From an uncultured Paracoccaceae bacterium (GTDB taxonomy: Bacteria; Pseudomonadota; Alphaproteobacteria; Rhodobacterales; Rhodobacteraceae), in assembly GCA_947493335.1 (NCBI GenBank), contig CANLQO010000001.1, positions 1,364,001-1,428,000 of the forward strand: DNA of 64,000 nucleotides, given 5' to 3'. The notes under the pieces were generated by a model. That model was given only the letters and a program-made list of their open reading frames with translations, searched no databases and was not told the DNA's origin. The position numbers and the translations under genes were made by a program. The number at the start of each line of letters is the position of its first letter. Position 1 is the stretch's first letter. This document shows, in pieces, positions 34,487 to 52,707 of the stretch.

Positions 34487-34490
34487 GCCC

Positions 34491-34955: not shown

Positions 34956-34972
34956 CCAGGAAAGAGAGCCCA

Positions 34973-35362
34973 ATGGCCCAGAACATCACCAAAAGCGCCA
35001 AGGACATCGTCAAGGCGGCCCTGACAAAGGTGCCCGCGATCAGCGTGGACGCGGCCCTGCCGCTGGTCGGCAGCGACACCCATGTCTTTGTGGACCTGCG
35101 CGACGGCACCGAACAGTCCAAGACGGGCATGATCCCCGGCGCGGTGGCCTCTTCCCGCGGCATGATGGAGTTCCACATCGACCCCGAAAGCCCGGCGCAC
35201 AAACCGGAATTCAATCAGGACAAGACTTACGTCTTTTATTGCGCGTCTGGCGGCCGGTCCGCTTTGGCGGCGCAGGTCGCCATGGATATGGGGCTGTCGC
35301 CTGTCTTGAATATGTCGGGTGGCGTGGCCGCGTGGAAAAAGGCCGGGGGGACATTGACGTGA
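34973..35362 (+). CDS. Rhodanese-like sulfurtransferase
   Basis: 129 residues, one rhodanese domain with the active Cys90 in loop CASGGRS. The substrate-site Asp-Arg pair is in VFVDLRDGTE. It could accept sulfane sulfur derived from H2S set free by methanethiol oxidation. ATG 34973 lies 17 bases after the CoA-binding gene, with GAGAG upstream. GTGA overlap with the following crotonase gene. Confidence 0.92.
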   Translation: MAQNITKSAKDIVKAALTKVPAISVDAALPLVGSDTHVFVDLRDGTEQSKTGMIPGAVASSRGMMEFHIDPESPAHKPEFNQDKTYVFYCASGGRSALAAQVAMDMGLSPVLNMSGGVAAWKKAGGTLT

Positions 35363-36177: not shown

Positions 36178-37784
36178 TGTACGCGGGCGCGGAACTTGCC
36201 CGCAACGCGGCAAATCACACGGCCCTGTCACCCGTTTCGATCCTGAAACGCGTCGAACGTGTGCATCCGGAATTGCCCGCGCAAATCCATGGCCGCATTC
36301 GGCGCAACTGGGGCGAGGTTGCAGAACGCTGCAAACGGCTGGCCTCTGCCATGGCCAAACGTGGTGTCCGCAAGGGTGACACAGTCGCGCTGATCGCGCC
36401 GAACATCCCCGAGGCGCTAGAATGCGCGCTGGCCGTGCCGATGCTGGGCGCGGTCCTGAACGCCAACAACACGCGGCTGGATGCAGGAACGATCGCCTAT
36501 ATCCTTGAGCACGGCGAAGCGAAGGTCCTTCTGGTCGATACGGAGTTCTCAGCGATCGCCGCCGAGGCCGTCGCGCAATCGGGTCGTGACCTGCTGATCG
36601 TCGATATCGAGGACAGCGAGGGCCCTTGTGGCGCGAAAATTGGCACCCTGACCTATGACGCTTTGCTGACCGAAGGCGATCCGGACTTCGCCTACGCGCT
36701 ACCGGATGACGAATGGGACGCGCTGGCGCTGAACTATACCTCTGGCACCACAGGGCGACCCAAGGGCGTTGTCTATTCCCATCGTGGTGCCTGGACCAAT
36801 GCGGTCAACAACGTCGTCACGTGGGAAATGCCGCATCATCCGGTCTATCTGTGGACGCTGCCGCTGTTTCACTGCAATGGCTGGTGCTTTCCCTGGACGA
36901 TCACCATGCTTGCGGGAACACATGTGTTCCTGCGCGCACCAAGGGCCGACGCGATCTATGACGCCTTTGCAGATCACGGTGTCACGCATCTGTGCGGTGC
37001 GCCGATCATCATGTCGATGATCTCGGGCGCTGCGGAAAAACGTGCCTTTCCGCAAAAGATCAAGATGATGACTGCCGCTGCCCCGCCTCCGGCAAGCGTC
37101 ATTGCCGGGATGGAGGCGATGGGGATTTCCATCACCCACGTCTATGGCCTGACTGAGGTTTACGGCCCCGCCGTTGTTTGCGCGGAAAAGCCGAGCTGGG
37201 CCGCCTTGCCACCGGAAGACCAAGCAACCCTGAAAGCACGCCAAGGCGTGGCCTACGAATTGCAGGAAGACGTGCTTGTCCTGAACCCCGACACCGGCAC
37301 ACCAGTGCCATGGGACGGCGAGACGCTGGGTGAGATCGTGTTCCGCGGCAACATCGTCATGAAAGGCTACCTCAAGGCCCCCGAAGAAACCGCCAAGGCC
37401 TTCAAGGACGGATGGTTCTGGTCGGGCGACATCGCGGTGCAGCATCCCGATGGCTACATCGAGATCCGCGACCGCTCCAAGGACATCATCATCTCTGGCG
37501 GGGAGAATATTTCCTCAATTGAGGTGGAAAAGGCGCTCTATTCGCACCCTGCCGTCGGCCTTTGTGCCGTCGTGGCCATGCCGGACGAAAAATGGGGCGA
37601 AGTGCCCTGCGCCTTTGTCGAACTTTCCGGCAACGCCACCGAGGACGAATTACTGGCCCATGCCAAGGCACGCCTTGCCGGTTACCAGCGTCCCAAAAAG
37701 ATCATCTTTGGTGAGCTTCCAAAGACCTCCACCGGAAAAATCCGCAAAAACGAACTCCGCGATCTGGTCCGCTCAAAAAGCTGA
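36174..37784 (+). CDS. AMP-forming acyl-CoA ligase (DmdB-like)
   Basis: Adenylate-forming CoA ligase of 536 residues. Motifs are YTSGTTGRPKG (P-loop), HVYGLTEVYGPAV, GWFWSGDIAV, RDRSKDIIISGGENISS and catalytic Lys in TSTGKIRKNEL. Length and style match medium-chain ligases that include DmdB, the methylmercaptopropionate-CoA ligase of DMSP demethylation. The adjacent DmdA-like gene supports that substrate, but other short carboxylic acids are possible. Start ATG 36174 overlaps the crotonase stop (ATGA). Confidence 0.92.
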   Translation: MMYAGAELARNAANHTALSPVSILKRVERVHPELPAQIHGRIRRNWGEVAERCKRLASAMAKRGVRKGDTVALIAPNIPEALECALAVPMLGAVLNANNTRLDAGTIAYILEHGEAKVLLVDTEFSAIAAEAVAQSGRDLLIVDIEDSEGPCGAKIGTLTYDALLTEGDPDFAYALPDDEWDALALNYTSGTTGRPKGVVYSHRGAWTNAVNNVVTWEMPHHPVYLWTLPLFHCNGWCFPWTITMLAGTHVFLRAPRADAIYDAFADHGVTHLCGAPIIMSMISGAAEKRAFPQKIKMMTAAAPPPASVIAGMEAMGISITHVYGLTEVYGPAVVCAEKPSWAALPPEDQATLKARQGVAYELQEDVLVLNPDTGTPVPWDGETLGEIVFRGNIVMKGYLKAPEETAKAFKDGWFWSGDIAVQHPDGYIEIRDRSKDIIISGGENISSIEVEKALYSHPAVGLCAVVAMPDEKWGEVPCAFVELSGNATEDELLAHAKARLAGYQRPKKIIFGELPKTSTGKIRKNELRDLVRSKS

Positions 37785-37811
37785 CCCCATCACTCAAACT
37801 GGATCCACGTC

Positions 37812-38966
37812 ATGTCCCAAAATCCGACCTTCGCCCAATTCAGCTTCGGCACACAGGTGCGAAAATCCCCTTATTCCGACGCCGCATTGCGGTGGGGGGC
37901 CAAGGGGTTCTCTGTCTACAACCACATGTACATCCCGCGCGATTTCGGCGACCCGGTGCAGAATTTCTGGAACCTGGTGAATGAGGCGATCCTTTGCGAC
38001 GTCTCCGTCGAACGGCAGGTGGAAATCAAAGGGCCGGATGCCGCGAAATTCACCCAGTTCCTGAGCTGCCGTGACTTGTCCACATGCCGGGTCGGGCAGT
38101 GCAAATATGTCCTGATCACCGACCAGCACGGCGGAATCATCAACGATCCGATCCTTTTGAAACTGGCCGAAGATCATTTCTGGCTGTCCATTGCCGACAG
38201 TGACGTGCTGCTATGGGCACGCGGCATCGCGGTGAACGCGGGCATGGATGTCGAGATTTCCGAACCCGACGTGTCGCCGTTGCAACTGCAAGGCCCCAAG
38301 TCCCGCGATGTTCTGCGCGAAGCCTTTGGTGATACGCCGACCGAGTTGAAATACTATCGCTTCATGGAGTTCGACTGGGACGGCGTGCCCTTGATCATCT
38401 CGCGCACCGGGTGGTCCAGCGAATTGGGTTACGAGATTTTCCTGCGCGATGGATCGCACGGCGACCGGCTTTGGGAACATCTGATGGCCGTCGGGATGCC
38501 CCTCGGCCTGAAACCGGGTCACACCTCAAGCATCCGCCGGATTGAGGCGGGCATGCTGTCGTATCACGCGGATATGACCCTTGCGAACAACCCCTATGAG
38601 TTGGGTATGGACCGGCTTGTCGATCTGGATATGAAGGCGGATTTTGTCAGCAAGGCAGCGCTGGCTGAAATCAAGGAAAAGGGCGTATCGCAAAAGCTTG
38701 TCGGCTTGGAAATTGATGGCGATCCGTTTATGGGGTCCAACGACTTCTTTTGGCCTGTCTTGAATGAAGGCAAGCAGGTCGGCACCGTCACGTCTGCGAT
38801 CTATTCTCCCAGACTCGAAAAGAACATCGCGCTTGCGATGATTGGTGTGGATCACGCAGAATTGGACACAGTGCTGCAGGTCGACAAACTGAGCGAAAAG
38901 CGCGCTTGCACTGTCGTGCCGATGCCATTCCACGACCCGAAGAAATCGCTTGCAGTGGCAAGTTGA
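37812..38966 (+). CDS. DmdA-like tetrahydrofolate-dependent demethylase (GcvT/AMT family)
   Basis: A 384-residue GcvT-fold methyltransferase. It shares the DmdA plan closely: VYNHMYIP near the N-terminus, DVSVERQVEIKGPDA, INDPILLKLAEDHFWLSIADSD, ISEPDVSPLQLQGPK, SRTGWSSELGYEIF and RRIEAGMLSYHADM. True DmdA moves a methyl from DMSP to THF, giving methylmercaptopropionate. The GWS motif is followed by SELGYE here instead of the KQGGFE I recall for DmdA, so this is a DmdA homologue whose substrate could be DMSP or a related sulfonium or methyl compound. Last gene of the operon, followed by a strong hairpin. Confidence 0.8.
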   Translation: MSQNPTFAQFSFGTQVRKSPYSDAALRWGAKGFSVYNHMYIPRDFGDPVQNFWNLVNEAILCDVSVERQVEIKGPDAAKFTQFLSCRDLSTCRVGQCKYVLITDQHGGIINDPILLKLAEDHFWLSIADSDVLLWARGIAVNAGMDVEISEPDVSPLQLQGPKSRDVLREAFGDTPTELKYYRFMEFDWDGVPLIISRTGWSSELGYEIFLRDGSHGDRLWEHLMAVGMPLGLKPGHTSSIRRIEAGMLSYHADMTLANNPYELGMDRLVDLDMKADFVSKAALAEIKEKGVSQKLVGLEIDGDPFMGSNDFFWPVLNEGKQVGTVTSAIYSPRLEKNIALAMIGVDHAELDTVLQVDKLSEKRACTVVPMPFHDPKKSLAVAS

Positions 38967-39048: not shown

Positions 39049-39390
39049 TCACGCATAAGCGGCGTCGACGATGAATTCCACCTTCAACGCGGGGCGTGCC
39101 AGCTTTGCCTCACCACAGGCGCGGGCCGGCGCGTGACCAGCGGGAACCCATGCGTTCCAAACCTCGTTCAGGCCCTCAAAGTCCTGCATGTCGGCAAGCC
39201 AGATCGTAACCCGGAGCATGTTTTCGCGTGACGATCCGGCCTTGGCCAAAAGCGCGTCGATATTGTCGAGGCATGCCCGGACCTGGTCTTGAATCGTGTC
39301 GCCTTCCGCAACCTGGCCGGTCAGATAAGCGACACCATTGTGCTTCACAATTTTTGAAGAGCGTGCGCCGGTATCGAAGCGTTCAATCAT
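39049..39390 (-). CDS. RidA-family enamine/imine deaminase or related Rid protein
   Basis: 113 residues of the RidA fold. Visible are YLTGQVAEGDTIQDQVRACLDNIDALL, the SSRENMLRVTIWLADMQDF block and GHAPARACGEAKLARPALKVEFIVDA. The Arg and Glu of the active site are present (PARACGEAKLA, VEFIVDA), though the usual R-x-x-V-x-V context is modified, as in the Rid4-7 or Rid2 subgroups. It may clear reactive enamines made by the neighbouring catabolic pathway. ATG 39390 is chosen from family start. Divergent from lysR. Confidence 0.88.
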   Translation of the reverse strand: MIERFDTGARSSKIVKHNGVAYLTGQVAEGDTIQDQVRACLDNIDALLAKAGSSRENMLRVTIWLADMQDFEGLNEVWNAWVPAGHAPARACGEAKLARPALKVEFIVDAAYA

Positions 39391-39531
39391 GGGATTTCCT
39401 TGCGATTGTGTTTGTGCGGGACCCCGGTCGGGGCGTTGTGATTGCCATATGGTCACGCGCCACAAATTGAGGCAAACTGGAATTCATTGAATTTGATTCA
39501 GGGTACCTTAATTTTGGCGATCAAGATCGAC

Positions 39532-40404
39532 ATGCTCAGATGTTTCACGATGGTCGCCACCCATGGCAGCCTGTCTGAAGCCGCAGATGCCTTGGGACGC
39601 ACACCTTCTGCGGTCTCCATGATGCTGAAACAGTTTGAAGAACACGTCGGCTCTGCCCTATTCGAAACGGCCCGCAAATCGCGGCTGACCCCCATCGGAG
39701 AGCTTATTCTGAATGAGGCCCGCCGCGAGGTCGCGCATTTCGAAAATACAGTATCAGTGATCGAAGGTCTGGCCCGGTCGGAGTTGGGGTTTCTGAGATT
39801 GGCCGTGACGCCATCGGTGGCAACATCTGTGCTGCCCACGGTGATTTTCAGGTTCGCCGAGATGTATCCGAAGGTGCAGATCGACCTTCGCGACATGGAT
39901 TCGGCAACAATCGCGCGCGAACTTGATCGCGAACGGGCCGATATCGGGATTGGGTCGCTGCCCAAGATGGAGGGGATGCAGCGCACAGAGCTTTTCAGCG
40001 ATGCGTTTGGTTTGGTGTGCAGGAAGGATCATCCGCTTGCGGAAAACTGGGATCAATTGTCTTGGCGCACCATGGGTGAACATACAATCATCGCGAATGG
40101 CCTTTGCGAGCAGATCACCGATCCTGACTTTGCGCCAATCCTTGCGCGGTCGCGGCTGATGGTTCCGAACACGGCATCATTGCTCGGATTGGTGCGGCAA
40201 GGCGTGGGCATTACGGTGCTGCCGCGTCTGGCCGTTGCCGGATCGCTTGATGCACTGGCGTTTCTGCCACTGGTGGACGTAAAGGCCCGTCGAACGGTGC
40301 ATCTGATGTCGCGCCCCAATTCGCTGTTGATGCCTGCTGCGCGAGAATTCCTGAAATTGATCACTGCAATGAAACGCGACGGGAGCTTGGTACTGGCATC
40401 CTGA
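39532..40404 (+). CDS. LysR-family transcriptional regulator
   Basis: A 290-residue activator-type protein with N-terminal helix-turn-helix (GSLSEAADALGRTPSAVSMMLKQFEEHVGSALFE) and periplasmic-binding-protein-like effector domain ending LGLVRQGVGITVLPRLAV. ATG 39532 is given; an in-frame TTG at 39514 would give the common LAIKIDMLRCF opening and may be the real start. It lies between ridA (divergent) and the operon at 40509, which it most likely controls. Confidence 0.92.
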   Translation: MLRCFTMVATHGSLSEAADALGRTPSAVSMMLKQFEEHVGSALFETARKSRLTPIGELILNEARREVAHFENTVSVIEGLARSELGFLRLAVTPSVATSVLPTVIFRFAEMYPKVQIDLRDMDSATIARELDRERADIGIGSLPKMEGMQRTELFSDAFGLVCRKDHPLAENWDQLSWRTMGEHTIIANGLCEQITDPDFAPILARSRLMVPNTASLLGLVRQGVGITVLPRLAVAGSLDALAFLPLVDVKARRTVHLMSRPNSLLMPAAREFLKLITAMKRDGSLVLAS

Positions 40405-40508: not shown

Positions 40509-41960
40509 ATGCACGACACCAAACTGAACTATATCGCTGGCGAATGGGTGGCAGGTGCATCCGAGATCGAAAACCGCAACCCGTCTGATTTGAGTGATCT
40601 GATCGGGATGTTTGCGCAAGCCACGCCGGACCAGTTGGACGCAACGCTTGAGCAGGCTCAAAAGGCTCAAGCCGAGTGGGCCGCCTACGGGATCGAGCGC
40701 AAGTACAACGTGTTGATGGCGATTGGCACCGAAATGATGGACCGCGCCGAAGAGCTGGGGACATTGCTGTCGCGCGAAGAAGGCAAGCCCTTGGCGGAAG
40801 GCAAAGGCGAAGTCTACCGCGCTGGCCAGTTCTTCACCTATTACGCCGCTGAAACCCTGCGCCAGTTGGGCGACACGGCTGACAGCGTGCGGGACGGGAT
40901 CGAGATTGATGTGCGGCGCGAACCGGTGGGTGTTGTCGCGATCATTTCGCCGTGGAACTTCCCCACGGCCACCGCATCCTGGAAGATCGCGCCTGCGCTT
41001 TGTTACGGCAATGCCGTGGTCTGGAAACCGGCGAATGTGACCCCGGCCTCGGCGGTGGCACTGATTGAGATCATCGCGCGGCAGGACATTCCCAAAGGCC
41101 TTGTGTCGCTGGTGATGGGTGCAGGCAGCGCTGTTGGTCAGCGGCTGGTCGAAAGCCCGAAGGTCAATGCGATCAGCTTCACCGGGTCCGTGCCAGTGGG
41201 TAAAGGGATCGCGGCCAGTGCTATTCAAAACCTGACCCGGGTGCAGATGGAGATGGGATCCAAGAATGCCCTGGCCGTGATGGATGACGCAGACATTGAT
41301 CTGGCCGTCACGCTGGCCTTGGGCGGCGCGTTTGGCGGTTCGGGTCAGAAGTGCACGGCGTCTTCGCGGCTGGTTGTGCATCGGTCGGTCCATGACCAAT
41401 TCGTTGAAAAGCTGGTTGCAGGTGCAAAGGCGATGAAAGTTGGTCACGCGCTTGAGGCGGGCACGCAGTTGGGCCCTGTTGTGTCTGAACAGCAGCTGAA
41501 CGAAAACCTCGCCTACGTCGATCTTGCCGCGTCTGAAGGGGCAGAACTCCTGTGCGGTGGTCAGCGTCTGGAGATGGCCACCGAGGGATATTTCATGTCC
41601 CCCGGCGTGTTTGTTGGCACCCACAATGACATGCGCATCAACCGGGAAGAGATGTTCGCGCCGCTTGCCTGCGTCATCCCGGTGGCCAGCTATGATGAGG
41701 CGTTGCATGTGGTCAACGACACGAACTTTGGTCTGACCGCAGGTATCGTGACCACCAATCTTGCCCGCGCCACGCATTTCCGCCGCAACGCGCAATCGGG
41801 CTGTGTGATGGTGAACCTGCCCACAGCCGGCACGGATTACCACGTCCCGTTCGGCGGACGCGGTGACAGTTCGTACGGGCCGCGCGAGCAAGGGCGCACA
41901 GCGGCGGAATTCTACACAATCGTGAAAACCGCCTATATCTCGTCGGGCGTCCCCGCATGA
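40509..41960 (+). CDS. Aldehyde dehydrogenase, alpha-ketoglutarate-semialdehyde-dehydrogenase-like
   Basis: 483-residue aldehyde dehydrogenase. Motifs are ISPWNFPTATASWKIAPAL, catalytic Glu in MEMGSKNALAV, catalytic Cys in GGSGQKCTASSR, and the end PFGGRGDSSYGPREQG. The last block and the FPTATASWK segment are those of KGSADH-type enzymes, which oxidise 2,5-dioxopentanoate in sugar-acid and hydroxyproline catabolism. First gene of a tightly coupled operon (ATGA overlap with the next), so its aldehyde substrate is probably made by the unknown enzymes downstream. Confidence 0.9.
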   Translation: MHDTKLNYIAGEWVAGASEIENRNPSDLSDLIGMFAQATPDQLDATLEQAQKAQAEWAAYGIERKYNVLMAIGTEMMDRAEELGTLLSREEGKPLAEGKGEVYRAGQFFTYYAAETLRQLGDTADSVRDGIEIDVRREPVGVVAIISPWNFPTATASWKIAPALCYGNAVVWKPANVTPASAVALIEIIARQDIPKGLVSLVMGAGSAVGQRLVESPKVNAISFTGSVPVGKGIAASAIQNLTRVQMEMGSKNALAVMDDADIDLAVTLALGGAFGGSGQKCTASSRLVVHRSVHDQFVEKLVAGAKAMKVGHALEAGTQLGPVVSEQQLNENLAYVDLAASEGAELLCGGQRLEMATEGYFMSPGVFVGTHNDMRINREEMFAPLACVIPVASYDEALHVVNDTNFGLTAGIVTTNLARATHFRRNAQSGCVMVNLPTAGTDYHVPFGGRGDSSYGPREQGRTAAEFYTIVKTAYISSGVPA

Positions 41961-42940
41961 TGCTGATCGACAATCTGCAATACGCCAATTGGTCGGAAAA
42001 GATCTTTCGTCAGATGCGGGAGGGCGGCGTTGATGCGGTGCATGTGACGATTTCCTACCACGAGAACTTTCGCGAAACGGTGCTGAATTTCGAGCAGTGG
42101 AACCGCTGGTTCGAGCAATATCCCGATCTGATCATGAAAGGCCAATGGGCGTCCGACGTGGATCGCGCCCGGGCGGAAGGCAAAACCGCGATCTTCTTTG
42201 GCTTTCAGAACCCTAGCCCGATTGAGGATGACATCGGGCTCGTCGAGATCGTGCATACGCTTGGCGCGCGCTTCATGCAGCTAACGTACAACAACCAATC
42301 CTTGCTCGCGACGGGGTGCTATGAGGCCGAAGACACGGGCATCACGCGGATGGGCCGTCAGGTCATCAAGGAAATGAACCGCGTGGGGCTTGTGGTGGAC
42401 ATGAGCCATTCGGCAGATCGTTCGACCATCGAGGCGGCGGAACTTTCAGAGCGTCCAATCGCGATCACGCATGCCAATCCTTATGATTGGTCCCCTGCCC
42501 TGCGCAACAAGAAGGATGATGTCATCCGCGCGGTGACGGAAAACGGCGGGATGCTGGGCTTTTCGGTCTATCCGCACCACCTCAAAGACAAGTCCGCCTG
42601 CACCCTGAACAGCTTTTGCGAAATGATCGCCCGCACGGCGGAAAAATTCGGCGCACAGCACCTCGGGATCGGGACTGACCTGTGCCAAGACCAACCAGAC
42701 AGCATTGTCGAATGGATGCGCGTCGGTCGTTGGAGCAAAGAGATCGACTATGGCGAAGGCTCTGCCGCGGCACCCGGATTTCCGCCGATGCCAAGCTGGT
42801 TCAAGGACAATCGCGACTTTGGCAATATCGCAGCGGGCCTGCGCGCCACGGGTCTGAACGACAGCGAAATTGCAGGGATCATGGGCGACAACTGGCACAG
42901 GTTCTATGCAGAGAATTTCACGCCGCAGGCAGAACGCTGA
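41957..42940 (+). CDS. Atypical M19 (renal dipeptidase family) hydrolase
   Basis: A 327-residue TIM-barrel protein of the membrane-dipeptidase family: GARFMQLTYNNQSLLATG, VVDMSHSADRSTIEAA and PIAITHANPYDWS. H151 and H172 match the two histidines of metal site 2. The N-terminal HxD of metal site 1 is absent (LIDNLQY), and the bridging Glu is replaced (FGFQNPSPI, Q84). A di-zinc dipeptidase reaction is therefore doubtful; a one-metal amidase or lyase is more likely. No signal peptide. ATGA overlap upstream and TGATG overlap downstream. Confidence 0.82.
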   Translation: MMLIDNLQYANWSEKIFRQMREGGVDAVHVTISYHENFRETVLNFEQWNRWFEQYPDLIMKGQWASDVDRARAEGKTAIFFGFQNPSPIEDDIGLVEIVHTLGARFMQLTYNNQSLLATGCYEAEDTGITRMGRQVIKEMNRVGLVVDMSHSADRSTIEAAELSERPIAITHANPYDWSPALRNKKDDVIRAVTENGGMLGFSVYPHHLKDKSACTLNSFCEMIARTAEKFGAQHLGIGTDLCQDQPDSIVEWMRVGRWSKEIDYGEGSAAAPGFPPMPSWFKDNRDFGNIAAGLRATGLNDSEIAGIMGDNWHRFYAENFTPQAER

Positions 42941-44628
42941 TGGACCGCCGCGCCGATACTTCGCCCAGCATTCCGTTGCGCCCTCCCGCGCACATGATGC
43001 GACTTGCGCGGCTCGGTTCTTTCCATCAGTCGCGTCTGTCGTTCATGCGCATTCTGACGCGGCGGATGAAGCGGGAGGCATGGACTTTCACGCGACCCGT
43101 CTTTGACATTGATGCGAATGGCGTGGGCCATGCGGTCTATGCGGCGCACACGCCCGACCGCACCTATTCGCTTGTTGCCTTTGCCCATGACCTGCCTGCT
43201 GACAAACGCTCTGACAGGGTGATCGCAGAGGCCTGGGACAGTACGTTTGCCTTGTTTGACGGCGTGCCCACGGAGGCCGACATCGAGCGGCTGCGCGCCA
43301 ATGTGCCATACCAAGAGGCAGGCCGCGTTACGGAAAGCGAGCTGTCACTGTCGCGCGCCAATCGCTCTGTGCGGCTGTGGGAATACATGGTGTCCTGTCT
43401 GGCCGAGGGCCGCCAGCCCGAGCCAGCAGAGGTCACGAAGGTCGGCTATCTGATGCGCACGACCGCCGTCTATGGATCGGGCAAGTTCGGCGCTGCGGAC
43501 CGCGAGGCGATTGCCGCACGTCCAGAGTGCAACGCGCCCTTCCAGATCGAAATGCTGTCCGTCTACCTGACCCGTACTTATGTGCGCGATCTGATGCAGC
43601 ACATGGCCAATGCGCGGGGCGGTGCCAAAGCCGTAACTCTTAATCCCAAGATCGCGCGCGCGATGGGTATCGGCAATTCGACGGGGCTGGGGATGGCACC
43701 GTTTCTGGTGAACCATCCAGAGCTTTTCAACAACTGGATCGCCGCGCGCGAAGCGGCGATTGCACGGGTGCGTTCGCTTCCTTCTGCGCGTGCGTCCGAG
43801 GCACAGCTTTTCCGCGATCTTCTGGCGCGCGCGATTTTGTCGGCAAGCCAATGGCAATCGGATCATCCCGTGCAGGTCGAAAAACTGGCCGCGCTGCGAC
43901 CCGATCTGGATCACCTTGCCGCGCATGTGGCGCAGACGGATCTGCGCGGCAACATGCCTTGGAACCGCCTGTTTGACTGGGCAGAAGCCAACCTTGGTGT
44001 GGACGCGCAAGAATGCTTGGCGTCCTTGATGCTGGAGCCCTACGGCGGCCTTGTCGATGATCTGACGACGCAGATGGCGGACACCAACACCGAAGGCTTC
44101 CGCATTGATGGCACGATGACAATCGGGGCGGTGCAGCAGATTTTGACGCAGGTCTACGACTGGGCCTTGGACATTGATTGGAGCGCGAAGGACAACTGCG
44201 CGCGCGCCTGGTACGTGTCCGAGGAAAAGCTGGAGCCGCGACTGGGCGAGCGCTTTGACGAGCCGATTGCGAACTACGAACAACCCCTCGCGCCGGGTCG
44301 GGATGCCGCGGCGTTGAGCGTCGCACTGACTACATGGGACGCAAGCAAACCCGTAGCTGAATTCCTGCTCGCGCAGCCTGAGCACCGCCACACGGTCCGC
44401 CGCGCCCAGATCGCCGCGCGTGCACCTTATGCGGAAATACGCGACAATACGATTGGCGCGGACCTGATGCCGATCGACATGCTGCGCTGCAAACTGTCGT
44501 TCTTTGGCGCGTCGCATTTTGATCCCAGATCGGACCGCTGGGTGCGCATTTGCATGTTTGGAAATGCGCCCTATCCAGAAGAGCTCGCGACATCAGACGA
44601 CCATTGGCCATACCCGGTGCTGCCGTGA
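42940..44628 (+). CDS. Unknown 562-residue protein of the BCCT operon
   Basis: A large soluble protein without signal peptide or membrane segments. I do not recognise a family. Notable segments are RLGSFHQSRLSFMRILTRRM near the N-terminus, RTYVRDLMQHMANARGG, GIGNSTGLGMAPFLVNHPELFNNW and MLEPYGGLVDDLTTQMADTNTEGF. It is rich in Arg and Ala, mostly helical by appearance, and ends with a beta-like tail containing PIDMLRCKLSFFGASHFDPRSDRW. The start ATG 42940 overlaps the M19 stop (TGATG); the open frame further upstream is a shadow of the M19 gene. Tight coupling to M19 and DUF3726 genes implies one pathway or complex. Confidence 0.88.
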   Translation: MDRRADTSPSIPLRPPAHMMRLARLGSFHQSRLSFMRILTRRMKREAWTFTRPVFDIDANGVGHAVYAAHTPDRTYSLVAFAHDLPADKRSDRVIAEAWDSTFALFDGVPTEADIERLRANVPYQEAGRVTESELSLSRANRSVRLWEYMVSCLAEGRQPEPAEVTKVGYLMRTTAVYGSGKFGAADREAIAARPECNAPFQIEMLSVYLTRTYVRDLMQHMANARGGAKAVTLNPKIARAMGIGNSTGLGMAPFLVNHPELFNNWIAAREAAIARVRSLPSARASEAQLFRDLLARAILSASQWQSDHPVQVEKLAALRPDLDHLAAHVAQTDLRGNMPWNRLFDWAEANLGVDAQECLASLMLEPYGGLVDDLTTQMADTNTEGFRIDGTMTIGAVQQILTQVYDWALDIDWSAKDNCARAWYVSEEKLEPRLGERFDEPIANYEQPLAPGRDAAALSVALTTWDASKPVAEFLLAQPEHRHTVRRAQIAARAPYAEIRDNTIGADLMPIDMLRCKLSFFGASHFDPRSDRWVRICMFGNAPYPEELATSDDHWPYPVLP

Positions 44629-45260
44629 GTTATTCGCTGAACGAGATCGAAGCGATGGCGAAGAAAGCGGCGCGCGGCGCGGGCTATGCTTGGGGCCCGG
44701 CAGAGGAAGCGGGCAAAGCTGTGCGCTGGCTGGAATCTCACGCTTTGAGCGGTGCGGCGGCATTGGTGGGTCATTTGAACATCGGCGATATCGACGGACC
44801 GCCCACGTCATTGCAAGGCGATTGGAGCAGCGCGACGGGCGTCTTGTGTCCTTTGACCAGCGGTGCAGCGCTGAATGATTGCGCGGAGCAATTGGCGGAC
44901 GGACATATCCAGCGTCTTTTGGATGTCGATCATCCGCTTTTGATCCTGCCTTTCGCGGCCTGGGCTGCGCTGCACATCAAAGCGCCGATCAAAGTTGAGT
45001 GGGACGGGGTGCGCGCCACGACCGACGGATACCGTCTGCGCCATGACGCGCTTAACGGCGATCCAAACCACCGCCGCGCGGCCGTCGTCATTTGCAAAAT
45101 GGACAACGCGACGGACGATCTGCGCGCTCCGGCCTTGCGCGGCGCGATCAGCAAAGACGTATGGCAAGCCCTCCGTGTATTTGCCCATCGCACCTACGCA
45201 CCGGCCAGCGAAGCATCACGTCTGCTCGGAGCGGGCGCCGGGGTGTCGGACAATGACTAA
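44625..45260 (+). CDS. DUF3726-like protein
   Basis: A 211-residue protein beginning SYSLNEIEAMAKKAARGAGYAWGPAEEAGKAVRWL when the GTG start is read as Met (split here: helix 1 to about residue 20, helix 2 to 35). This matches DUF3726 as I remember it. The rest includes LLDVDHPLLILPFAAWAALH and VEWDGVRATTDGYRL. No signal peptide. GTG 44625 overlaps the previous stop (GTGA). It is always expected beside its partner if the two form an enzyme. Function unknown. Confidence 0.78.
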   Translation: MSYSLNEIEAMAKKAARGAGYAWGPAEEAGKAVRWLESHALSGAAALVGHLNIGDIDGPPTSLQGDWSSATGVLCPLTSGAALNDCAEQLADGHIQRLLDVDHPLLILPFAAWAALHIKAPIKVEWDGVRATTDGYRLRHDALNGDPNHRRAAVVICKMDNATDDLRAPALRGAISKDVWQALRVFAHRTYAPASEASRLLGAGAGVSDND

Positions 45261-45333
45261 GGATAAACAGGCAACCCCGCAGTGGCAGCGCCAACCGACT
45301 GCGGGACAATTTAGAATGGCGCAACAAACGTAA
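45253..45333 (+). CDS. Possible 26-residue leader or small protein before BCCT
   Basis: ATG 45253 opens a frame of 26 codons that overlaps the DUF3726 stop by 8 bases and ends 13 bases before the BCCT gene. The peptide (MTKDKQATPQWQRQPTAGQF...) is polar, with no membrane segment. A perfect 8-base-pair hairpin lies inside it. It may be a translated leader that couples BCCT synthesis to the upstream genes, or chance. Confidence 0.3.
   Translation: MTKDKQATPQWQRQPTAGQFRMAQQT
45276..45305 (+). promoter_or_regulatory. Intergenic hairpin before the BCCT gene
   Basis: CCCGCAGT and ACTGCGGG pair perfectly across a 14-base loop, between DUF3726 and BCCT genes. No U tract follows. It could stabilise the transporter message or lower its expression relative to the enzymes. 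Confidence 0.5.
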
Positions 45334-45346
45334 CAGGGGACGAATA

Positions 45347-47161
45347 ATGTCTATTAAACCACCATTCACCGAATTGGAGATCGAAAAGGCTCCATCCGGT
45401 TTTTACGAAGGCTACAGCCTTCCCATTGCGCTGATCAGCAAGGCGATCATGGTCGCGCTTGTTGTTTGGGCGCTTGTCTGGCCGGGCAATGCCAGCAGCG
45501 TCCTGTCATCCGTGAACAGCACATTGCTGAACGGGTTCAACAGCTTCTACATCATCTCGGTCGGCCTGTTTGCTTTCTTCCTGTTCGTCCTGGCCATTCT
45601 ACCGGCGACCGGCAGCAAGAAGCTCGGAACGGCCGAAACTGTCCCCGAATTCTCGAACTTCTCGTGGTTCTCGATGATGTTCGGCGCAGGTCTGGGGGTC
45701 GGGCTGATGGTCTTTGCCACGGCAGAACCGCTTGGCCTTTGGGGATCAAACCCCGTGGTCCTGTCCGGCGAGGTGGCCGCAAATTCAGAGGAAGCGGTGC
45801 AGTCAGCCTACCGCTACACCTTCCTTCACTACGGGTTCCACGCTTGGGCGATCTACGTGCTGACCGGTCTGTCACTGGCCTACTACGCCTATACGCGGGA
45901 AATGCCGCTGACGATCCGTTCCGCGCTGACGCCACTGTTGGGCAGGGCCGCCAATGGTCCACTTGGTCACCTGGTCGATGTGCTTGGCGTTGTCGCCACG
46001 ATCCTTGGCGTATCCGTCACAATCGGCTTTGGCGTCAGCCAGTTCGTCGATGGTGTCTATGCCGTGTCGGGCATGGAGTGGTTGATGAACGGCGACGCAG
46101 AAGCCCCCAAACCAAGCACCGTTGGCCTGATCTCGGCGCTGATGGTCATCATGGGTCTGTCGATCATCTCGGCCGTTTCGGGTGTTGGCCGGGGGATCAA
46201 ATATCTGTCGAACCTCAATCTGGTTCTGTCCGTGATCCTGTTGCTGACGTTCGTCGTGTTCGGCTCATTCTTCTTTGCAATGACAAAGTTCGGTGCAGGT
46301 CTGGTGGACTACATTTTGCACTTCGTTCAACTGTCATTCGGCGCCTACGGCCCGCAATCGGCTGACGCATTCGCAGCAGCCATCCCTGAGGCCGCACAGG
46401 CATTGCCGGCCGAGGATATCGCGGCGATCTACGGATCGGCCACATCGCCTTGGGGATCTTTGGGCGGGTTTAGCGAAGGGCTACCAGCATCTGCTGCGGC
46501 GCTTGATGCCGAGGCCATCTATGCCGCTGGTGAGCAAGGCCGTCAGTTTGGTTGGCAGGCCGGTTGGACCACGTTCTACTGGGCTTGGTGGATCGCGTTT
46601 TCGCCGTTTGTCGGTCTCTTCCTGGCGCGTATCTCCAAGGGTCGCACTGTGCGGGAGTTCATCCTTGGTTGCGTGATCGCCCCTGCGATCGTGTGCTTCT
46701 TGTGGATGACCATTCTGGGCGGCACTGCCATTGATCTGGAACTGAACGGCGACGCTGCCGGGTCCCTGATCGGTGCAACAAATACGGCCAAACTTTTCGC
46801 GACACTTGGGCAGATGATTTCGGGCGGGTTTCTGTCAGCCATCACCATCATGTGTGTGGTCCTGATCATGACCTTCCTTGTCACATCTGCTGACTCTGGC
46901 ATTCTGGTGATGAACACCATCATGTCTGGTGGTGAGCAGGAAACCGGCATCAAGCACCGGATCATCTGGGGTCTGATCCTGACCGCGGTCATCGGTGCCT
47001 TGATCATTGCGGGCAATAGTGGCGCAGAGGCCAATCCGTTTGGAGCGCTCCAGAATGCGATGATTATCGGGGCCCTGCCCTTCACAATTGTCATGGTGTT
47101 CATGATGATTTCGCTTGTGAAGGCGCTCTATCGCGACAACATCCGTGAAAAGAACGCTTAA
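45347..47161 (+). CDS. BCCT-family betaine/carnitine/choline-type transporter
   Basis: Secondary transporter of 604 residues with twelve membrane helices that imports a trimethylammonium or sulfonium zwitterion with Na+ or H+. The family signature is complete: TTFYWAWWIAFSPFVGLFLARISKGRTVREF. The substrate-binding Trp box of this family is within it; MFGAGLGVGLMVFATAEPL matches the unwound first helix. An insertion of about 80 residues lies in the middle (Ala-rich, AAAIPEAAQALPAED). It is the last gene of the operon, suggesting that the pathway substrate is betaine-like or DMSP-like. AGGGGAC precedes ATG. Confidence 0.93.
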   Translation: MSIKPPFTELEIEKAPSGFYEGYSLPIALISKAIMVALVVWALVWPGNASSVLSSVNSTLLNGFNSFYIISVGLFAFFLFVLAILPATGSKKLGTAETVPEFSNFSWFSMMFGAGLGVGLMVFATAEPLGLWGSNPVVLSGEVAANSEEAVQSAYRYTFLHYGFHAWAIYVLTGLSLAYYAYTREMPLTIRSALTPLLGRAANGPLGHLVDVLGVVATILGVSVTIGFGVSQFVDGVYAVSGMEWLMNGDAEAPKPSTVGLISALMVIMGLSIISAVSGVGRGIKYLSNLNLVLSVILLLTFVVFGSFFFAMTKFGAGLVDYILHFVQLSFGAYGPQSADAFAAAIPEAAQALPAEDIAAIYGSATSPWGSLGGFSEGLPASAAALDAEAIYAAGEQGRQFGWQAGWTTFYWAWWIAFSPFVGLFLARISKGRTVREFILGCVIAPAIVCFLWMTILGGTAIDLELNGDAAGSLIGATNTAKLFATLGQMISGGFLSAITIMCVVLIMTFLVTSADSGILVMNTIMSGGEQETGIKHRIIWGLILTAVIGALIIAGNSGAEANPFGALQNAMIIGALPFTIVMVFMMISLVKALYRDNIREKNA

Positions 47162-47528: not shown

Positions 47529-49232
47529 TCACGGGACGTGTTGCGCCCATTCGGCGGGCATCACGGGGGTGAGTGACAGCAGCTCGCGGGTGTAGGCGGC
47601 GCTGGGGCGTTCATAGACGTCTTCGGCGGCGCCAAGTTCCTGCACGCGGCCATTGCGCAGCACCAGCACCTCATCCGCCATCTGCCGGACGACCGCCAGA
47701 TTGTGGCTGATAAAGATGATGGTCAGCCCAAACGCGGCCTGCAGGTCCTTGAGCAGATTAAGAAGCTCGGCCTGAATAGAGACATCGAGGGCCGAAGTCG
47801 GTTCGTCGCAGATCAGCACCTTGGGGCGGGCCAGAAGCGCGCGGGCGACGGCGATCCGTTGCCTTTGACCGCCCGAAAACTGATGCGGGTATTTGTCGAT
47901 GGCATCGGGGGCCATGCCAACGAGATCAAGCATTTCCTTGGCCAGCGCCCGACGGTCAGCGGCATCTTTGACCAGCCCATAGAGCCACAGGGGTTCGGAC
48001 AGGATGGCACCGATCCGGTGGCGCGAATTCAGCGATGAAAACGGATCTTGAAACACCATCTGGATCAATTGCCGCGATGCATGGTGTCGCCCGCGTGCCT
48101 TGCCGCCCGGCAGGTCTGCGCCTGCTAGCGTCATCGTCCCGGCGGTGGGTTTCAGCAAACCGGTGAGCGTTTTGGCCAGTGTCGACTTGCCCGAGCCACT
48201 TTCACCCACGACACCCAGAACCGCGCCCGGCCGGACCTCAAAACTGATGTCATCTAGGGCCACAAATGGCGCAGGCTTATGCCAGAACGACGTGCGGGTT
48301 CCGGGAAAGGCAACTGTGATGCCATCCAGCGACAGCCCGATGGGGTTCTGCCGCACGCCTTCCAGCAGCCAGTCCTCGGCCTTGTTGGTGCGCGCAGCTG
48401 TGCCAAGCGCGGGGCTGGTTTCGTCTTCGGGGACGGGAAACCGGTCCAGCCTGCGATCAAGCGGCGGTACTGCGCCCATAAGCTGTTTGGTATAGGCGTG
48501 CTGCGGGCGGCCCAGAACCTCTGCTGTCGGGCCATTCTCGATCAGTTTGCCGCGACGCATGACGGTCACGCTATCGGCAATCTGGGCAATGACGCCAATG
48601 TCATGGGTGATCAGCATGAAGCCGACCTTGCGCACATCCGCAAGCCTGCGGATCAGGTCAAGCACTTGCGATTGCACCGCGACATCAAGCGCGGTTGTGG
48701 GTTCATCGGCAATGATCAGCTCGGGGTTGGTGCACAGCGCAAGGGCGATGACAACGCGTTGCCGCATCCCGCCGGAAAACTGATGTGGATAGGCCTGCAT
48801 CCGCGCCGCGGCGTCCCTGATCCCCATCTCTTCCAGCAGATCGACGGCGCGGGCCTGCGCGTCCGAGGTTGTAATATCTTCATGGGTCTGGATCGTCTCA
48901 ACCAGTTGATCCTCGATCGTCATGAGCGGGTTCAGGCTGGTCTGCGGGTCCTGAAAGATCATCGAAATCCGCTTGCCCCGCATGCGGTGCGCGGCAGTGC
49001 GGTCAAGCGTGCGCAGGTCCGTTTCGCCCAGATGCAGGCTGCCAGCGGCCACATATCCGGGGGGCTGCAGCAGCCCAATGACGGCGGCACCCACGGTGGA
49101 TTTGCCTGCCCCGCTTTCACCGACCAGACCATGAATTTCCCCCGGTGCGATCTGCATCGCCATGTCTTCCACCGCCGTCACATCGCCAAAGCGCGACGGG
49201 AATTTGACCGTGAGCCCCTGCACCCGCAGCAT
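47529..49232 (-). CDS. Fused peptide ABC transporter ATPase (DppD-DppF type)
   Basis: A 567-residue tandem ATPase for an oligopeptide/dipeptide-type importer. The first half has GESGAGKST, FSGGMRQRVVIALAL and IIADEPTTALD. The second half has GESGSGKST, FSGGQRQRIAVARAL and LICDEPTSALD. The two halves correspond to DppD and DppF fused in one chain, a common form in alphaproteobacteria. One-base overlap (start/stop) with the permease gene upstream. Last gene of a four-gene operon. Confidence 0.95.
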   Translation of the reverse strand: MLRVQGLTVKFPSRFGDVTAVEDMAMQIAPGEIHGLVGESGAGKSTVGAAVIGLLQPPGYVAAGSLHLGETDLRTLDRTAAHRMRGKRISMIFQDPQTSLNPLMTIEDQLVETIQTHEDITTSDAQARAVDLLEEMGIRDAAARMQAYPHQFSGGMRQRVVIALALCTNPELIIADEPTTALDVAVQSQVLDLIRRLADVRKVGFMLITHDIGVIAQIADSVTVMRRGKLIENGPTAEVLGRPQHAYTKQLMGAVPPLDRRLDRFPVPEDETSPALGTAARTNKAEDWLLEGVRQNPIGLSLDGITVAFPGTRTSFWHKPAPFVALDDISFEVRPGAVLGVVGESGSGKSTLAKTLTGLLKPTAGTMTLAGADLPGGKARGRHHASRQLIQMVFQDPFSSLNSRHRIGAILSEPLWLYGLVKDAADRRALAKEMLDLVGMAPDAIDKYPHQFSGGQRQRIAVARALLARPKVLICDEPTSALDVSIQAELLNLLKDLQAAFGLTIIFISHNLAVVRQMADEVLVLRNGRVQELGAAEDVYERPSAAYTRELLSLTPVMPAEWAQHVP

Positions 49233-50137
49233 CAGCGCAACCTCGGGTTAAAGACATCGCGCAGGAAATCACCCAACACGTTGATCGAGATCACCAGTGC
49301 CACCAGAAAGAGCGTCGGCACCCAAAGGATCCACCATTCGCCCGAAAAGAGGAACTGCATCCCGATCCGGATCAGGGTGCCAAGCGACGGGCTGTCTGCA
49401 GGCAGGCCGATCCCCAGGAAGGACAGCGTTGCTTCAAGCAGGATGGCAGAGGCCAGATCAACGGTCATGATGACCAGAAGCGGCCCGAGGATATTGGGCA
49501 GGATATGCACGAACATCACGCGCAGCGGATGCTGGCCCTGCATCACGGCGGCCTGCACGTATTCCTTGTTCATCTGCACAAAGGTCGAGGCACGCGCGGT
49601 GCGGGCAAAGTTCACCCAAAGCGACAGGGCGATGGCAAGCGTCAGCACCGTGACCCGCAGGCTTTGCTGCATGTCGGTGGGCAGCACACCGCGCGCGATC
49701 CCGTCAATCAGCAGCGCCGTCAGGATGGCGGGCAAGGCCAGCTGGATGTCAGCGATACGCATGACGATGGCATCAAAGCGCCCGCCGAAATACCCCGCAG
49801 CCAGCCCCAGCCCGACGCCCAGCACGGTGGCAATGGCCATGGCCGAGATACCGATGATCAGTGACAGCCGCGCCCCATAAAGGATGGAAGAGATCATATC
49901 CCGTCCCTGATCGTCGGTTCCAAGCGGGAACCGGCTTGTCCCGAATTCCTCCCACATCGGCGGCAACAGCCCGTCCATTAGCGAAAACGAGGCCAGATCA
50001 TAGGGATCAAGCGGCGCGATCCACGGGGCAAAGGCGGCCCCGATCAGGATCGTCAACGCCACAATCGCCGCGAGGATCACCGCCGGTGAGCGGGTGAAGA
50101 GCCACAGACCCTCGTAGCGTTTGATAAATTCCCGCAT
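49232..50137 (-). CDS. Peptide ABC transporter permease, DppC type
   Basis: A 301-residue inner-membrane permease with six segments. The N-terminal extension and the cue LGTDDQGRDMISSILYGARLSLIIG are DppC/OppC hallmarks. The ATPase-docking loop contains EYVQAAVMQGQHPLRVMFVHILPN. One-base overlaps with both neighbours give a tight operon. Confidence 0.95.
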   Translation of the reverse strand: MREFIKRYEGLWLFTRSPAVILAAIVALTILIGAAFAPWIAPLDPYDLASFSLMDGLLPPMWEEFGTSRFPLGTDDQGRDMISSILYGARLSLIIGISAMAIATVLGVGLGLAAGYFGGRFDAIVMRIADIQLALPAILTALLIDGIARGVLPTDMQQSLRVTVLTLAIALSLWVNFARTARASTFVQMNKEYVQAAVMQGQHPLRVMFVHILPNILGPLLVIMTVDLASAILLEATLSFLGIGLPADSPSLGTLIRIGMQFLFSGEWWILWVPTLFLVALVISINVLGDFLRDVFNPRLR

Positions 50138-51111
50138 CAGGACACGTCCTTGATCCGCAAGCGCGGGTCAATGGCCACGTAAAGCAGGTCCACGATCAGG
50201 TTCACCAGCACAAAGAAGAAGGCAATCACCACAAGGTAGACCCCCATCACAGGGATATCGACAAAGCGGATCGATTCCAGAAACAGCAGCCCCATGCCGG
50301 GCCATTGAAAGACGCTTTCGGTCACGATGGAAAAGGCGATGACGCCGCCAAACTGAAGCCCGATGATCGTGATCACCGGCACCATGGTATTGGCCAGCGC
50401 GTGCCGGAAATAGAGCCGCCCCATGGGTACCCCGCGCGCGGTGGCAAAGCGGATGTAGTCGGACCGCATGACCTCCATCATCTCGGCGCGCACAAGGCGC
50501 ATGGTAAGGGTCAATTGGTAGACGCCCAAGGTGATGGCAGGCAGGATCAGGGCGCGCCAGCCATCCACCGTCAGAAACGACGTCTCCCACCCGCCGATGG
50601 TGACGGTGCCGCCACGTCCGAAGGTCGGCAGCCAGCCAAGCTGCACCCCAAAGAAAAAGATCAGCATTATGCCGATGACAAAGGTCGGGATCGAAACACC
50701 GACAAGCGTGACCATCAGGATGGCCTGCGTGGCTGCCCCCCGAGGCCGGAGTGCGGTATAGACGCCTGCGGGTATCCCCACGACCAATGAAATCAGCAAT
50801 GCCACGACACCAAGTTCCAGCGTGGCGGGCATACGGCTCGAGATCATCTCGGCCACGGGTTGGCGCGTGCGGTAGGAAAACCCGAAATCGCCCTGCAGCA
50901 TGTCGCCGGTAAAGCGCATGAATTGCAGGGCGAAGGGATCGTTCAGGCCAAGCTCTTCGCGCAGACGCTCCTGATCGGCGACGGAGGTTTCCACCCCGGT
51001 CATCTGGGTGATCGGGTCACCGACAAACCGGAACAAAGAGAAGGCCAGAAAGGCAACGGCCAACATCACAAAAACAGACTGGATCAGCCGTTTCCCGATG
51101 AAATATGCCAT
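50137..51111 (-). CDS. Peptide ABC transporter permease, DppB type
   Basis: A 324-residue permease: the N-terminus YFIGKRLIQSVFVMLAVAFLAFSLFRFVGDP is typical of DppB. The docking loop is RSDYIRFATARGVPMGRLYFRHALAN. It lies 18 bases after the binding-protein gene. Confidence 0.95.
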   Translation of the reverse strand: MAYFIGKRLIQSVFVMLAVAFLAFSLFRFVGDPITQMTGVETSVADQERLREELGLNDPFALQFMRFTGDMLQGDFGFSYRTRQPVAEMISSRMPATLELGVVALLISLVVGIPAGVYTALRPRGAATQAILMVTLVGVSIPTFVIGIMLIFFFGVQLGWLPTFGRGGTVTIGGWETSFLTVDGWRALILPAITLGVYQLTLTMRLVRAEMMEVMRSDYIRFATARGVPMGRLYFRHALANTMVPVITIIGLQFGGVIAFSIVTESVFQWPGMGLLFLESIRFVDIPVMGVYLVVIAFFFVLVNLIVDLLYVAIDPRLRIKDVS

Positions 51112-51129
51112 TGCCTTACGTCTTCTTGC

Positions 51130-52707
51130 TTAGTTGACGGTCACCCAGCGCAGCATAAAGAAATTGTCTGCACGCTGCGTCAGGTCGACATTATCCTTCG
51201 CCGCCCAAATCAGGGGCTGGGTGTAAAGCGGGATATAAGCCACCTCATCCTGGGTGATCGCCACGACTTCATCGACATAGGATTGCCGCACCGCCGGGTC
51301 GATTTCCTGCTGGATCAGCGGCAGCAATTCATCAACGCGGGCGTTGGAATAATTGCCAAAGTTCCAGGACCCGAGCTTTTTCTCATCATCCTGCGAATGC
51401 ATCAGGAAGCGGATCGGATGCTCCATATCGAATGTGCCCGGTGACCAGCCCAGAAGATACATGTCAAAGTCATCTTCGCGCAGTTGCGGCCAGTAGTCGC
51501 GCACAGGTCCGGTCGACAATTCGGCATCAAGGCCGACGGCTGCGAACATGGACGCCGCAGCCCGGCACAGCGCTTCGTCGTTGATATAGCGATCATTGGG
51601 GCACTTGAGGCCAAAGCTGAAGCCATCGGGATAACCGGCTTCTGCCAGAAGCGCCTTGGCTTTGTCGGGATCATAGCCCGGACGGGTCGCATTGGCTTCG
51701 GAATAGCCCGAGATGCCTGCGGGCACCAATTGGCTGGCCCCTTCGATCTTGCCGCGGAACAGGACCCGGTCGATCGACGCAAGATCAATCGCATGGGCCG
51801 CAGCCAGACGGACACGCGGATCAGCAAACGGGTTGGCGTCGGTAACATCGCTGGAATACAGCAATGTGTCGTGCTCATGCCCGAACCCGAACATGATCAC
51901 GCGGGTTTCTTCCCCTTCCAGCACCTGAAAACCATCGCGGCTTTCGACCTGTTCCACATCCTGAAGCGGGATCGGCTGGATAAAGTCGATCTCACCCGAC
52001 AAAAGCGCCGCAAGCCCGGTGGCCGCGTTGCCGATGGGGGTGAATGTCGCCTCTGTCACGTTGTGTTCGGCTGTGTCCCACCATCCGGCGTGCGGCGTCA
52101 GCACAGTCTTGACGCCGGGATCGCGGCTGGCGACCACAAAGGGGCCGGTGCCGTTGACGTTCAGCGTGGCATGATTTTCTGCGTCACGTGCCGGCAAGGC
52201 TGCGTCGTTCGCCATTGCCCAATCCTTGTCGAGGATCATGAAATTCGCGATCGAGGACGGGAACAACGGATTGGGCGCAGAGGTCACGAAATCAATGGTG
52301 AAATCATCCACCACGCGCACCTCTGTCACGGGCGCGAACCATGATCTGACATCTGCGGCCTCATCCGAGGCGCGGGTGTAAGAGAACATTACATCTTCTG
52401 CAGTGAAATCGGCACCGTCCTGAAACTTGACGCCTTCACGCAGGGTGAACCGCCAGCCATTTTCACCGTCAAGCGGTTCCCATGACGTCGCAAGCGACGG
52501 TTCAATCGACATATCCTTGCCGCGTCTGACAAGGCCCTCGTAGACATTGTTGAGGAAAGACAGCACAGGGGCCGAATTGACCGCGTGCGGGTCCATTGTT
52601 TGCGGGTCAGTTGTTGATGCCCATTTGAAATCTTCGGCCTGCACGGCCAGGGCTGACATTGAAAATGCACTTCCCAAAAGTAGCGATTTGAATAGTTTAT
52701 GCGTCAT
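51130..52707 (-). CDS. Peptide ABC transporter substrate-binding protein (SBP_bac_5 family)
   Basis: A 525-residue periplasmic receptor. The signal peptide is LFKSLLLGSAFSMSALAVQA, cleaved before EDFKWA. The body has TDPQTMDPHAVNSAPVLSFLNNVYEGLVRR and RLAAAHAIDLASIDRVLFRG typical of DppA/OppA. The ligand may be a peptide, a glycoside, nickel or another compound handled by this family. First gene of the operon. Confidence 0.95.
   Translation of the reverse strand: MTHKLFKSLLLGSAFSMSALAVQAEDFKWASTTDPQTMDPHAVNSAPVLSFLNNVYEGLVRRGKDMSIEPSLATSWEPLDGENGWRFTLREGVKFQDGADFTAEDVMFSYTRASDEAADVRSWFAPVTEVRVVDDFTIDFVTSAPNPLFPSSIANFMILDKDWAMANDAALPARDAENHATLNVNGTGPFVVASRDPGVKTVLTPHAGWWDTAEHNVTEATFTPIGNAATGLAALLSGEIDFIQPIPLQDVEQVESRDGFQVLEGEETRVIMFGFGHEHDTLLYSSDVTDANPFADPRVRLAAAHAIDLASIDRVLFRGKIEGASQLVPAGISGYSEANATRPGYDPDKAKALLAEAGYPDGFSFGLKCPNDRYINDEALCRAAASMFAAVGLDAELSTGPVRDYWPQLREDDFDMYLLGWSPGTFDMEHPIRFLMHSQDDEKKLGSWNFGNYSNARVDELLPLIQQEIDPAVRQSYVDEVVAITQDEVAYIPLYTQPLIWAAKDNVDLTQRADNFFMLRWVTVN

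Follow-up and report, generated by a model that had tools for sequence, protein, structure and literature searches.

A conserved operon with two proposed alternative ends, probably for the uptake and degradation of homarine

Which substrate is imported and degraded by an operon that joins an aldehyde dehydrogenase, an M19-family protein, a 562-residue protein and a DUF3726 protein to a betaine-type transporter is the question raised by the window, the whole stretch of 64,000 nucleotides that was analysed. On the forward strand, the aldehyde dehydrogenase gene (ALDH, 40509..41960; Pfam Aldedh, E 1e-151) overlaps the M19-family gene (41957..42940; Peptidase_M19, E 1e-73) by 4 bases (ATGA), and the latter overlaps the gene encoding the 562-aa protein, called U562 here and proposed as a ring-opening component (42940..44628; no Pfam family above cut-off), by 1 base (TGATG). 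U562 in turn overlaps at GTGA with the gene encoding the 211-aa DUF3726 protein (44625..45260; GTG start; DUF3726, E 2e-20), and the BCCT betaine-type transporter (45347..47161; BCCT, PF02028, E 3e-146) follows on the same strand after a gap of 86 bases. Upstream of ALDH and in the same direction lies a LysR-type regulator (39442..40404; HTH_1 and LysR_substrate), given as the longest open reading frame with an uncertain start, ATG 39532 at the latest. Divergent from it is a 113-aa RidA-family imine/enamine deaminase (39049..39390, reverse strand; Ribonuc_L-PSP, E 4e-23), counted from the ATG at 39390 in a reading frame that extends to 39465. The gene order, the start/stop overlaps and the LysR and RidA flanks described in the first-pass annotation are confirmed by these coordinates and Pfam matches, and the ALDH-M19-U562-DUF3726 operon with its BCCT, LysR and RidA genes is real.

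U562 was present in 18 of 61 genomes in a first sample of relatives, in two copies in the window's own genome, and matched in 178 of 394 genomes of the family (E<=0.001; 2 of the 178 marginal), that is, in 177 of the 393 sampled genera, some of which carry only the bare trio of M19, U562 and DUF3726. Gene context was compared in 123 loci, comprising the window, 19 wide stretches, 30 loci, 13 plasmid stretches and 60 picks taken, partly by identity, from among the family-sample matches listed; subtracting one partial locus (L066) and five duplicates leaves 117 distinct sequences, a non-random sample whose 30-locus subset is skewed toward the window's operon type. DUF3726 lies directly downstream of U562 in 110 of these 117 loci, and M19 lies within 3.5 kb of U562 on the same strand, likewise in 110. 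LysR adjoins ALDH in 73 loci, BCCT is inside the operon in 46, and a betaine-type ABC binding protein is found near the operon in 6. Four of the seven loci without a DUF3726 match are rhizobial, and in these four an unnamed protein occupies the same place. The gene set is far from chance: the co-occurrence of U562, DUF3726 and M19, proposed earlier as the point to check, holds, and the trio stays together rather than being scattered over unrelated contexts, with ALDH directly before M19 in 81 loci and missing there in 36.

Several forms of the operon were observed. The window's type has RidA reading away from LysR-ALDH-M19-U562-DUF3726, mostly followed by BCCT, and in the second type the operon continues into an oxidoreductase of the Ldh family. 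The operon is accompanied by a glycine-betaine-type ABC transporter in Aminobacter, Shinella and a record labelled Roseateles, the last of which also has purU and folD. The third form is the bare trio, represented also by the additional copy that the window's genome carries, and a distant rhizobial form consists of IclR, U562, an unnamed protein, M19 and a polyamine-type ABC transporter, followed by an aminotransferase in S. meliloti.

The genes that mark the first two forms were never found together. Within 9.5 kb, RidA was found at 27 of the 117 distinct loci, the Ldh-type imine reductase at 55, both at none and neither at 35 (21 of these 35 also lack ALDH directly before M19), while about 13 loci with both would be expected if the two were independent (Fisher p 2e-9, a value that disregards kinship and sampling). 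RidA adjoins LysR, DUF3726 or U562 in 26 of its 27 loci, and Ldh adjoins DUF3726 or U562 in 53 of 55, one of them (L099) on the other strand. On a quick tree, with long branches for the most distant sequences, the RidA label changes nine times, at least eight of these changes being forced by well-supported branches, and two operons with RidA (L128 and L109) fall within groups of Ldh operons. A kinship-aware test gave 8 independent pairs, of which about 4 differed in opposite ways, none in the same way and the rest not at all (sign test, median p 0.125); tree-aware support for the exclusion is weak. RidA had been taken as a mere flank of the operon; since no locus carries both genes, it looks like a part of the system.

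For the operon's Ldh, delta1-piperideine-2-carboxylate reductase is the nearest relative, at 184 bits, with the runner-up at 136, and DpkA presumably belongs to the same family. DpkA is called an imine reductase and was used in the reductive methylamination of pyruvate, according to the available text of PMC6237917. The window RidA, which has the Ribonuc_L-PSP fold, scores below the NCBIfam cut-offs for the named subfamilies, and carries an arginine aligned with the arginine of the solved relatives 3k12 and 9bk1; in the RidA family this residue binds the substrate carboxylate.

A link to N-methylglutamate dehydrogenase (Mgd) was found on the Ldh side. Genes of the mgd type lie beside the operon in 11 of the 117 distinct loci, all with Ldh and none with RidA, including those of Ruegeria sp. 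TM1040, P. inhibens 2.10 and A. crassostreae; among the RidA-type operons examined, the window copy included, none has mgd genes next to it. An mgd-type set is present in the window's genome, not beside the window operon but on contig C4, where a type-III glutamine synthetase of the gmaS type (model TIGR03105, which we take to be gmaS) lies at a distance of about 15 kb. In all 11 linked loci the C subunit is closer to this set than to two other sets of the same genome, clearly so in 10 and by a narrow margin in L073 (51, 50 and 42%), and the four subunits of TM1040 show 80/77/72/46% identity to the C4 set, against 68/48/55/27% and 48/-/45% to the two sets on contig C1. The A subunit lies outside the examined stretch in 3 of the 11 (L112, L131 and L133). 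An identity as sarcosine oxidase (Sox) was rejected, the C and A subunits being closer to the gmaS-contig set than to the two others, and so was L150 as a further linked locus, its sole candidate protein being 27% alike. An AraC-type gene stands between the operon and mgd in TM1040, P. inhibens 2.10 and A. crassostreae, and this mgd-side regulator, considered as a candidate TmaR, has GbdR as its best NCBIfam match (203 of 480 bits). In the part of the published account available, an AraC-type gene adjoins mgd in R. pomeroyi, as in TM1040. RidA and Ldh never occur together and all 11 mgd-linked operons have Ldh, so that one common imine is the simplest reading; this suggests that both enzymes act on it, Ldh by reduction and RidA by hydrolysis.

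The earlier proposal that the operon serves to import and degrade a betaine-like zwitterion is supported, and that zwitterion is probably homarine (N-methylpicolinate), the window's operon being a RidA variant of the route. Homarine would be imported by BCCT, and its ring would be opened between C5 and C6 by U562 and DUF3726 to give N-formyl-N-methyl-dehydroglutamate semialdehyde. ALDH would oxidise the C5 aldehyde, the M19-like enzyme may take the N-formyl group off as formate, and RidA would hydrolyse the N-methyl enamine or imine of 2-oxoglutarate to 2-oxoglutarate and methylamine. In the sister operons, the Ldh-type imine reductase would produce N-methylglutamate, which Mgd would demethylate to glutamate. 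The carbon count fits, homarine minus one carbon being N-methylglutamate.

A homarine operon named homABCDER, whose route ends in glutamate via N-methylglutamate, has reportedly been described by Ferrer-Gonzalez and colleagues in 2026. By that description, the five genes plus regulator, the betaine-type uptake and the mgd link in related genomes would fit the operons compared here; the window copy differs in having RidA in place of Ldh and in not lying beside mgd. Among the 394 family genomes, no near-identical match was found to R. pomeroyi megaplasmid DNA, and the DmdD protein of 4izb, which we take to be an R. pomeroyi protein, had a best match of 88%, with no near-identical match in two genera tried either. 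According to the available parts of the respective articles, R. pomeroyi takes up homarine (PMC12817926) and grows more poorly on it than on trigonelline (PMC8269262). A role of Mgd in homarine catabolism is stated, with citation of Ferrer-Gonzalez et al. (2026, Nat Microbiol 11:1531), in the available text of a 2026 paper, which also ties the enzyme to methylated amines. Given the mgd-linked relatives and this role of Mgd, the pathway has probably been described already, and the first-pass view that the gene set matches no pathway described so far is probably wrong.

The proposed route resembles the trigonelline (tgn) and pyridine (pyr) pathways, in which ring opening likewise gives an N-formyl enamine aldehyde that is handled by an ALDH and an amide hydrolase. 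In tgn and pyr the ring is opened by flavin oxygenases, whereas no cofactor domain was recognised in either U562 or DUF3726. Neither Pfam, NCBIfam nor the comparison of its model with the PDB recognised a flavin, iron or NAD(P) domain in U562, so the oxygenase step would proceed without a visible cofactor; nor did the window's operon reveal a reductase.

With neither an oxygenase cofactor domain nor a reductase visible in the operon, a hydrolytic opening of homarine, without O2, comes into consideration; it would lead to 2-(methylamino)muconate semialdehyde, with ALDH as an aminomuconate semialdehyde dehydrogenase and RidA as a 2-aminomuconate deaminase. Picolinate is the cyclisation product of 2-aminomuconate semialdehyde, 2-aminomuconate deaminase is a RidA-fold enzyme, and the aminomuconate route likewise pairs an ALDH with a RidA-fold protein. 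Among solved structures, the muconic semialdehyde dehydrogenase 4go3 ranks second in similarity to ALDH, narrowly ahead of the third, in a PDB comparison that did not discriminate among betaine, muconic and succinic semialdehyde enzymes. However, the best NCBIfam models of ALDH are 2,5-dioxovalerate and alpha-ketoglutaric semialdehyde dehydrogenase (484.5 and 483 bits; cut-offs 750 and 770), and the 484 bits for the former compare with 313 for 2-hydroxymuconic semialdehyde dehydrogenase. A hydrolytic opening would also yield a C6 chain, while the Mgd linkage points to a C5 N-methyl amino acid, and it would leave M19 without a role; we regard it as unlikely.

An N-methylated zwitterion other than homarine, such as proline betaine, N-methylproline, trigonelline or a relative, could also end in N-methylglutamate or a 2-oxoglutarate imine. 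The family may serve several substrates: in Shinella, ABC genes of the proline/glycine betaine kind and an NADH:flavin oxidoreductase are found close to the operon, and the rhizobial relatives have their polyamine-type ABC transporter and, in S. meliloti, the aminotransferase. Trigonelline, however, already has a route through the TgnA/TgnB oxygenase (available text of PMC8269262), and the available part of the 2026 paper, in linking Mgd to methylated amines and homarine, mentions none of the alternatives listed here, which makes a different substrate for the window's operon rather improbable. Sulfonium (DMSP-type) metabolism is very hard to credit: genes encoding DmdA-like, acyl-CoA synthetase, enoyl-CoA hydratase and SBP56 proteins do lie just upstream (window 32775-38966), and in P. 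inhibens DSM 17395 a window-like copy adjoins dmd-type genes, but DmdA-like genes are near only 7 of the 117 loci, so that a DmdA link to the operon was rejected, and the neighbours fall below the NCBIfam cut-offs (379.7 of 410 bits for the DmdA-like gene at 37812-38966, 289 of 822 for 3-(methylthio)propionyl-CoA ligase and 157.8 of 650 for methanethiol oxidase).

The M19-family protein of the window has the PF01244 fold, with a Pfam match that starts at profile position 30. In M19 dipeptidases, the HxD motif and the bridging Glu serve as ligands of the dizinc site. In an alignment of 54 rows (loci L021-L077 and the window, two contigs appearing twice), the HxD places, assigned by eye, hold other residues in all 54 (L7, and Y, F or C at 9), and the bridging Glu is replaced by Gln84, also in all 54 and also in the alignment to DPEP1, while H151, H172 and D241 are kept. 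Three of the five metal ligands are thus gone, which bears out the earlier description of this M19 as aberrant and, for the same reason, makes its suggested role as an amide-type hydrolase doubtful for a plain dizinc enzyme. From its residues, the protein is no ordinary dizinc dipeptidase, and the deformylase role is a guess. The nearest solved relative, 2i5g, is similar over the full length (E 4e-54) and shows the same loss of HxD and the same Glu-to-Gln change; it presumably comes from another pathway, the dimethylglycine operon of Pseudomonas. The BCCT protein has the trimethylamine transporter 8zw8 as its nearest solved relative, followed by BetP.

U562 and DUF3726 had been singled out as the unexplained core of the operon, and this stands. 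U562 has no Pfam match above cut-off (best E 0.09) and no NCBIfam match, PDB profile searches reached a best E of 0.35 for it and 0.64 for DUF3726, and its AF2 model (pLDDT 74.9, pTM 0.78; the other four models pLDDT 60.9-70.3) gave no fold match in the PDB at E<=0.001. The residues kept in at least 97% of the 117 sequences include 21 arginines and no cysteine, and several conserved segments fall in low-confidence regions of the model, which would fit a partner or cofactor site.

The DUF3726 model is confident (pLDDT 88), and its 22 best PDB rows are all Ldh_2 enzymes (TMq 0.43-0.59; best E 9e-4, only one row at E<=0.001), the family of delta1-piperideine-2-carboxylate reductase 1wtj, YiaK and type-2 malate dehydrogenase, whose fold the model resembles. 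Its N-terminal 52 residues align with the Ldh_2 profile (hhalign E 1e-4, probability 57%), while a global hhalign of DUF3726 against Ldh_2 found nothing (probability 0.1); an equation of RGxxSWG in DUF3726 with RGxxSHG in Ldh_2 was rejected, hhalign aligning RGxxSWG elsewhere. Ldh_2 enzymes have about 340 residues and an NAD domain, whereas DUF3726, with 211, aligns to them only with large gaps, has no NAD-binding domain and carries a conserved C-terminal tail (GAGAGxSDND-like). This tail is conserved yet unstructured in the model, suggesting that DUF3726 may reach into a partner with it.

A tentative extension of the homarine reading, which we would not count as probable, is that U562 and DUF3726 together represent a novel enzyme class, one that opens the ring of N-methylpyridinium carboxylates. 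In it DUF3726, an imine-reductase remnant with a 2-carboxylate-binding fold, would keep the substrate in place while its conserved tail extends into U562. The system might then have two interchangeable ends, Ldh with Mgd leading to glutamate and RidA leading to 2-oxoglutarate and methylamine, which would have been switched several times.

Marine plankton is rich in the betaine homarine according to the available text of PMC8269262, amounts from which were later corrected downward because of a contaminated standard (available part of PMC10134881). The gene set is widespread in marine bacteria and most likely serves homarine import and breakdown. In the literature searched, which did not include the homarine pathway article itself, neither the name homABCDER, a further paper on hom genes nor a description of the RidA/Ldh alternation was found, and DUF3726 was not found mentioned there. 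The pathway itself is probably in print, and the new observations, as far as that literature shows, are the exchange between RidA and Ldh, the resemblance of DUF3726 to Ldh and the loss of metal ligands in M19. If the reading is true, U562 and DUF3726 would be an enzyme pair with a chemistry not found described in the literature searched, and the presence of Ldh or of RidA could by itself tell whether the nitrogen of homarine is retained in glutamate or given off as methylamine. The window's genome also encodes a RidA 84% identical to the window RidA, 68 bases from the gmaS-type gene.

A second copy of the gene trio encoding the M19 enzyme, U562 (the 562-aa protein without a known family) and the DUF3726 protein was found in the same genome (locus L033, C1:288000-307000), and its U562 was 49% identical to that of the window. 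This copy was flanked by genes encoding Omp85 and tRNA pseudouridine synthase, neither an ALDH nor a transporter gene was found adjoining it, and a second trio copy of this kind was also present in four genomes of the same genus.

Distant U562 relatives (~31%) were observed on the rhizobial plasmids L072, L101 and L076, in a cluster encoding IclR, U562, an unnamed protein, M19 and a polyamine-type ABC transporter. The operon of L073 (NZ_CP084753.1), recorded as Roseateles (UNVERIFIED_ORG), resembled those of Shinella and Aminobacter, and the taxonomy of this record may be wrong. In two MAGs labelled Acidimicrobiales (L060 and L061), U562 was 59-61% identical to that of the window's alphaproteobacterium, indicating either transfer or a binning error.

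In the window, genes encoding an SBP56-family protein, enoyl-CoA hydratase, acyl-CoA synthetase and a DmdA-like protein (32775-38966) form a DMSP-demethylation-like set, of which the three scored genes did not reach the curated cut-offs of the DMSP-specific models. Immediately past the operon, the minus strand carries ABC transporter genes, among them one for a binding protein of family 5 (peptide-type) (47529-52707).

In addition, a paralogue with 84% identity to the window's RidA was observed on contig C4 of the same genome (L091:5054-5404), 68 bases from a glutamine synthetase gene classed as gmaS-type, TIGR03105 corresponding to gmaS.
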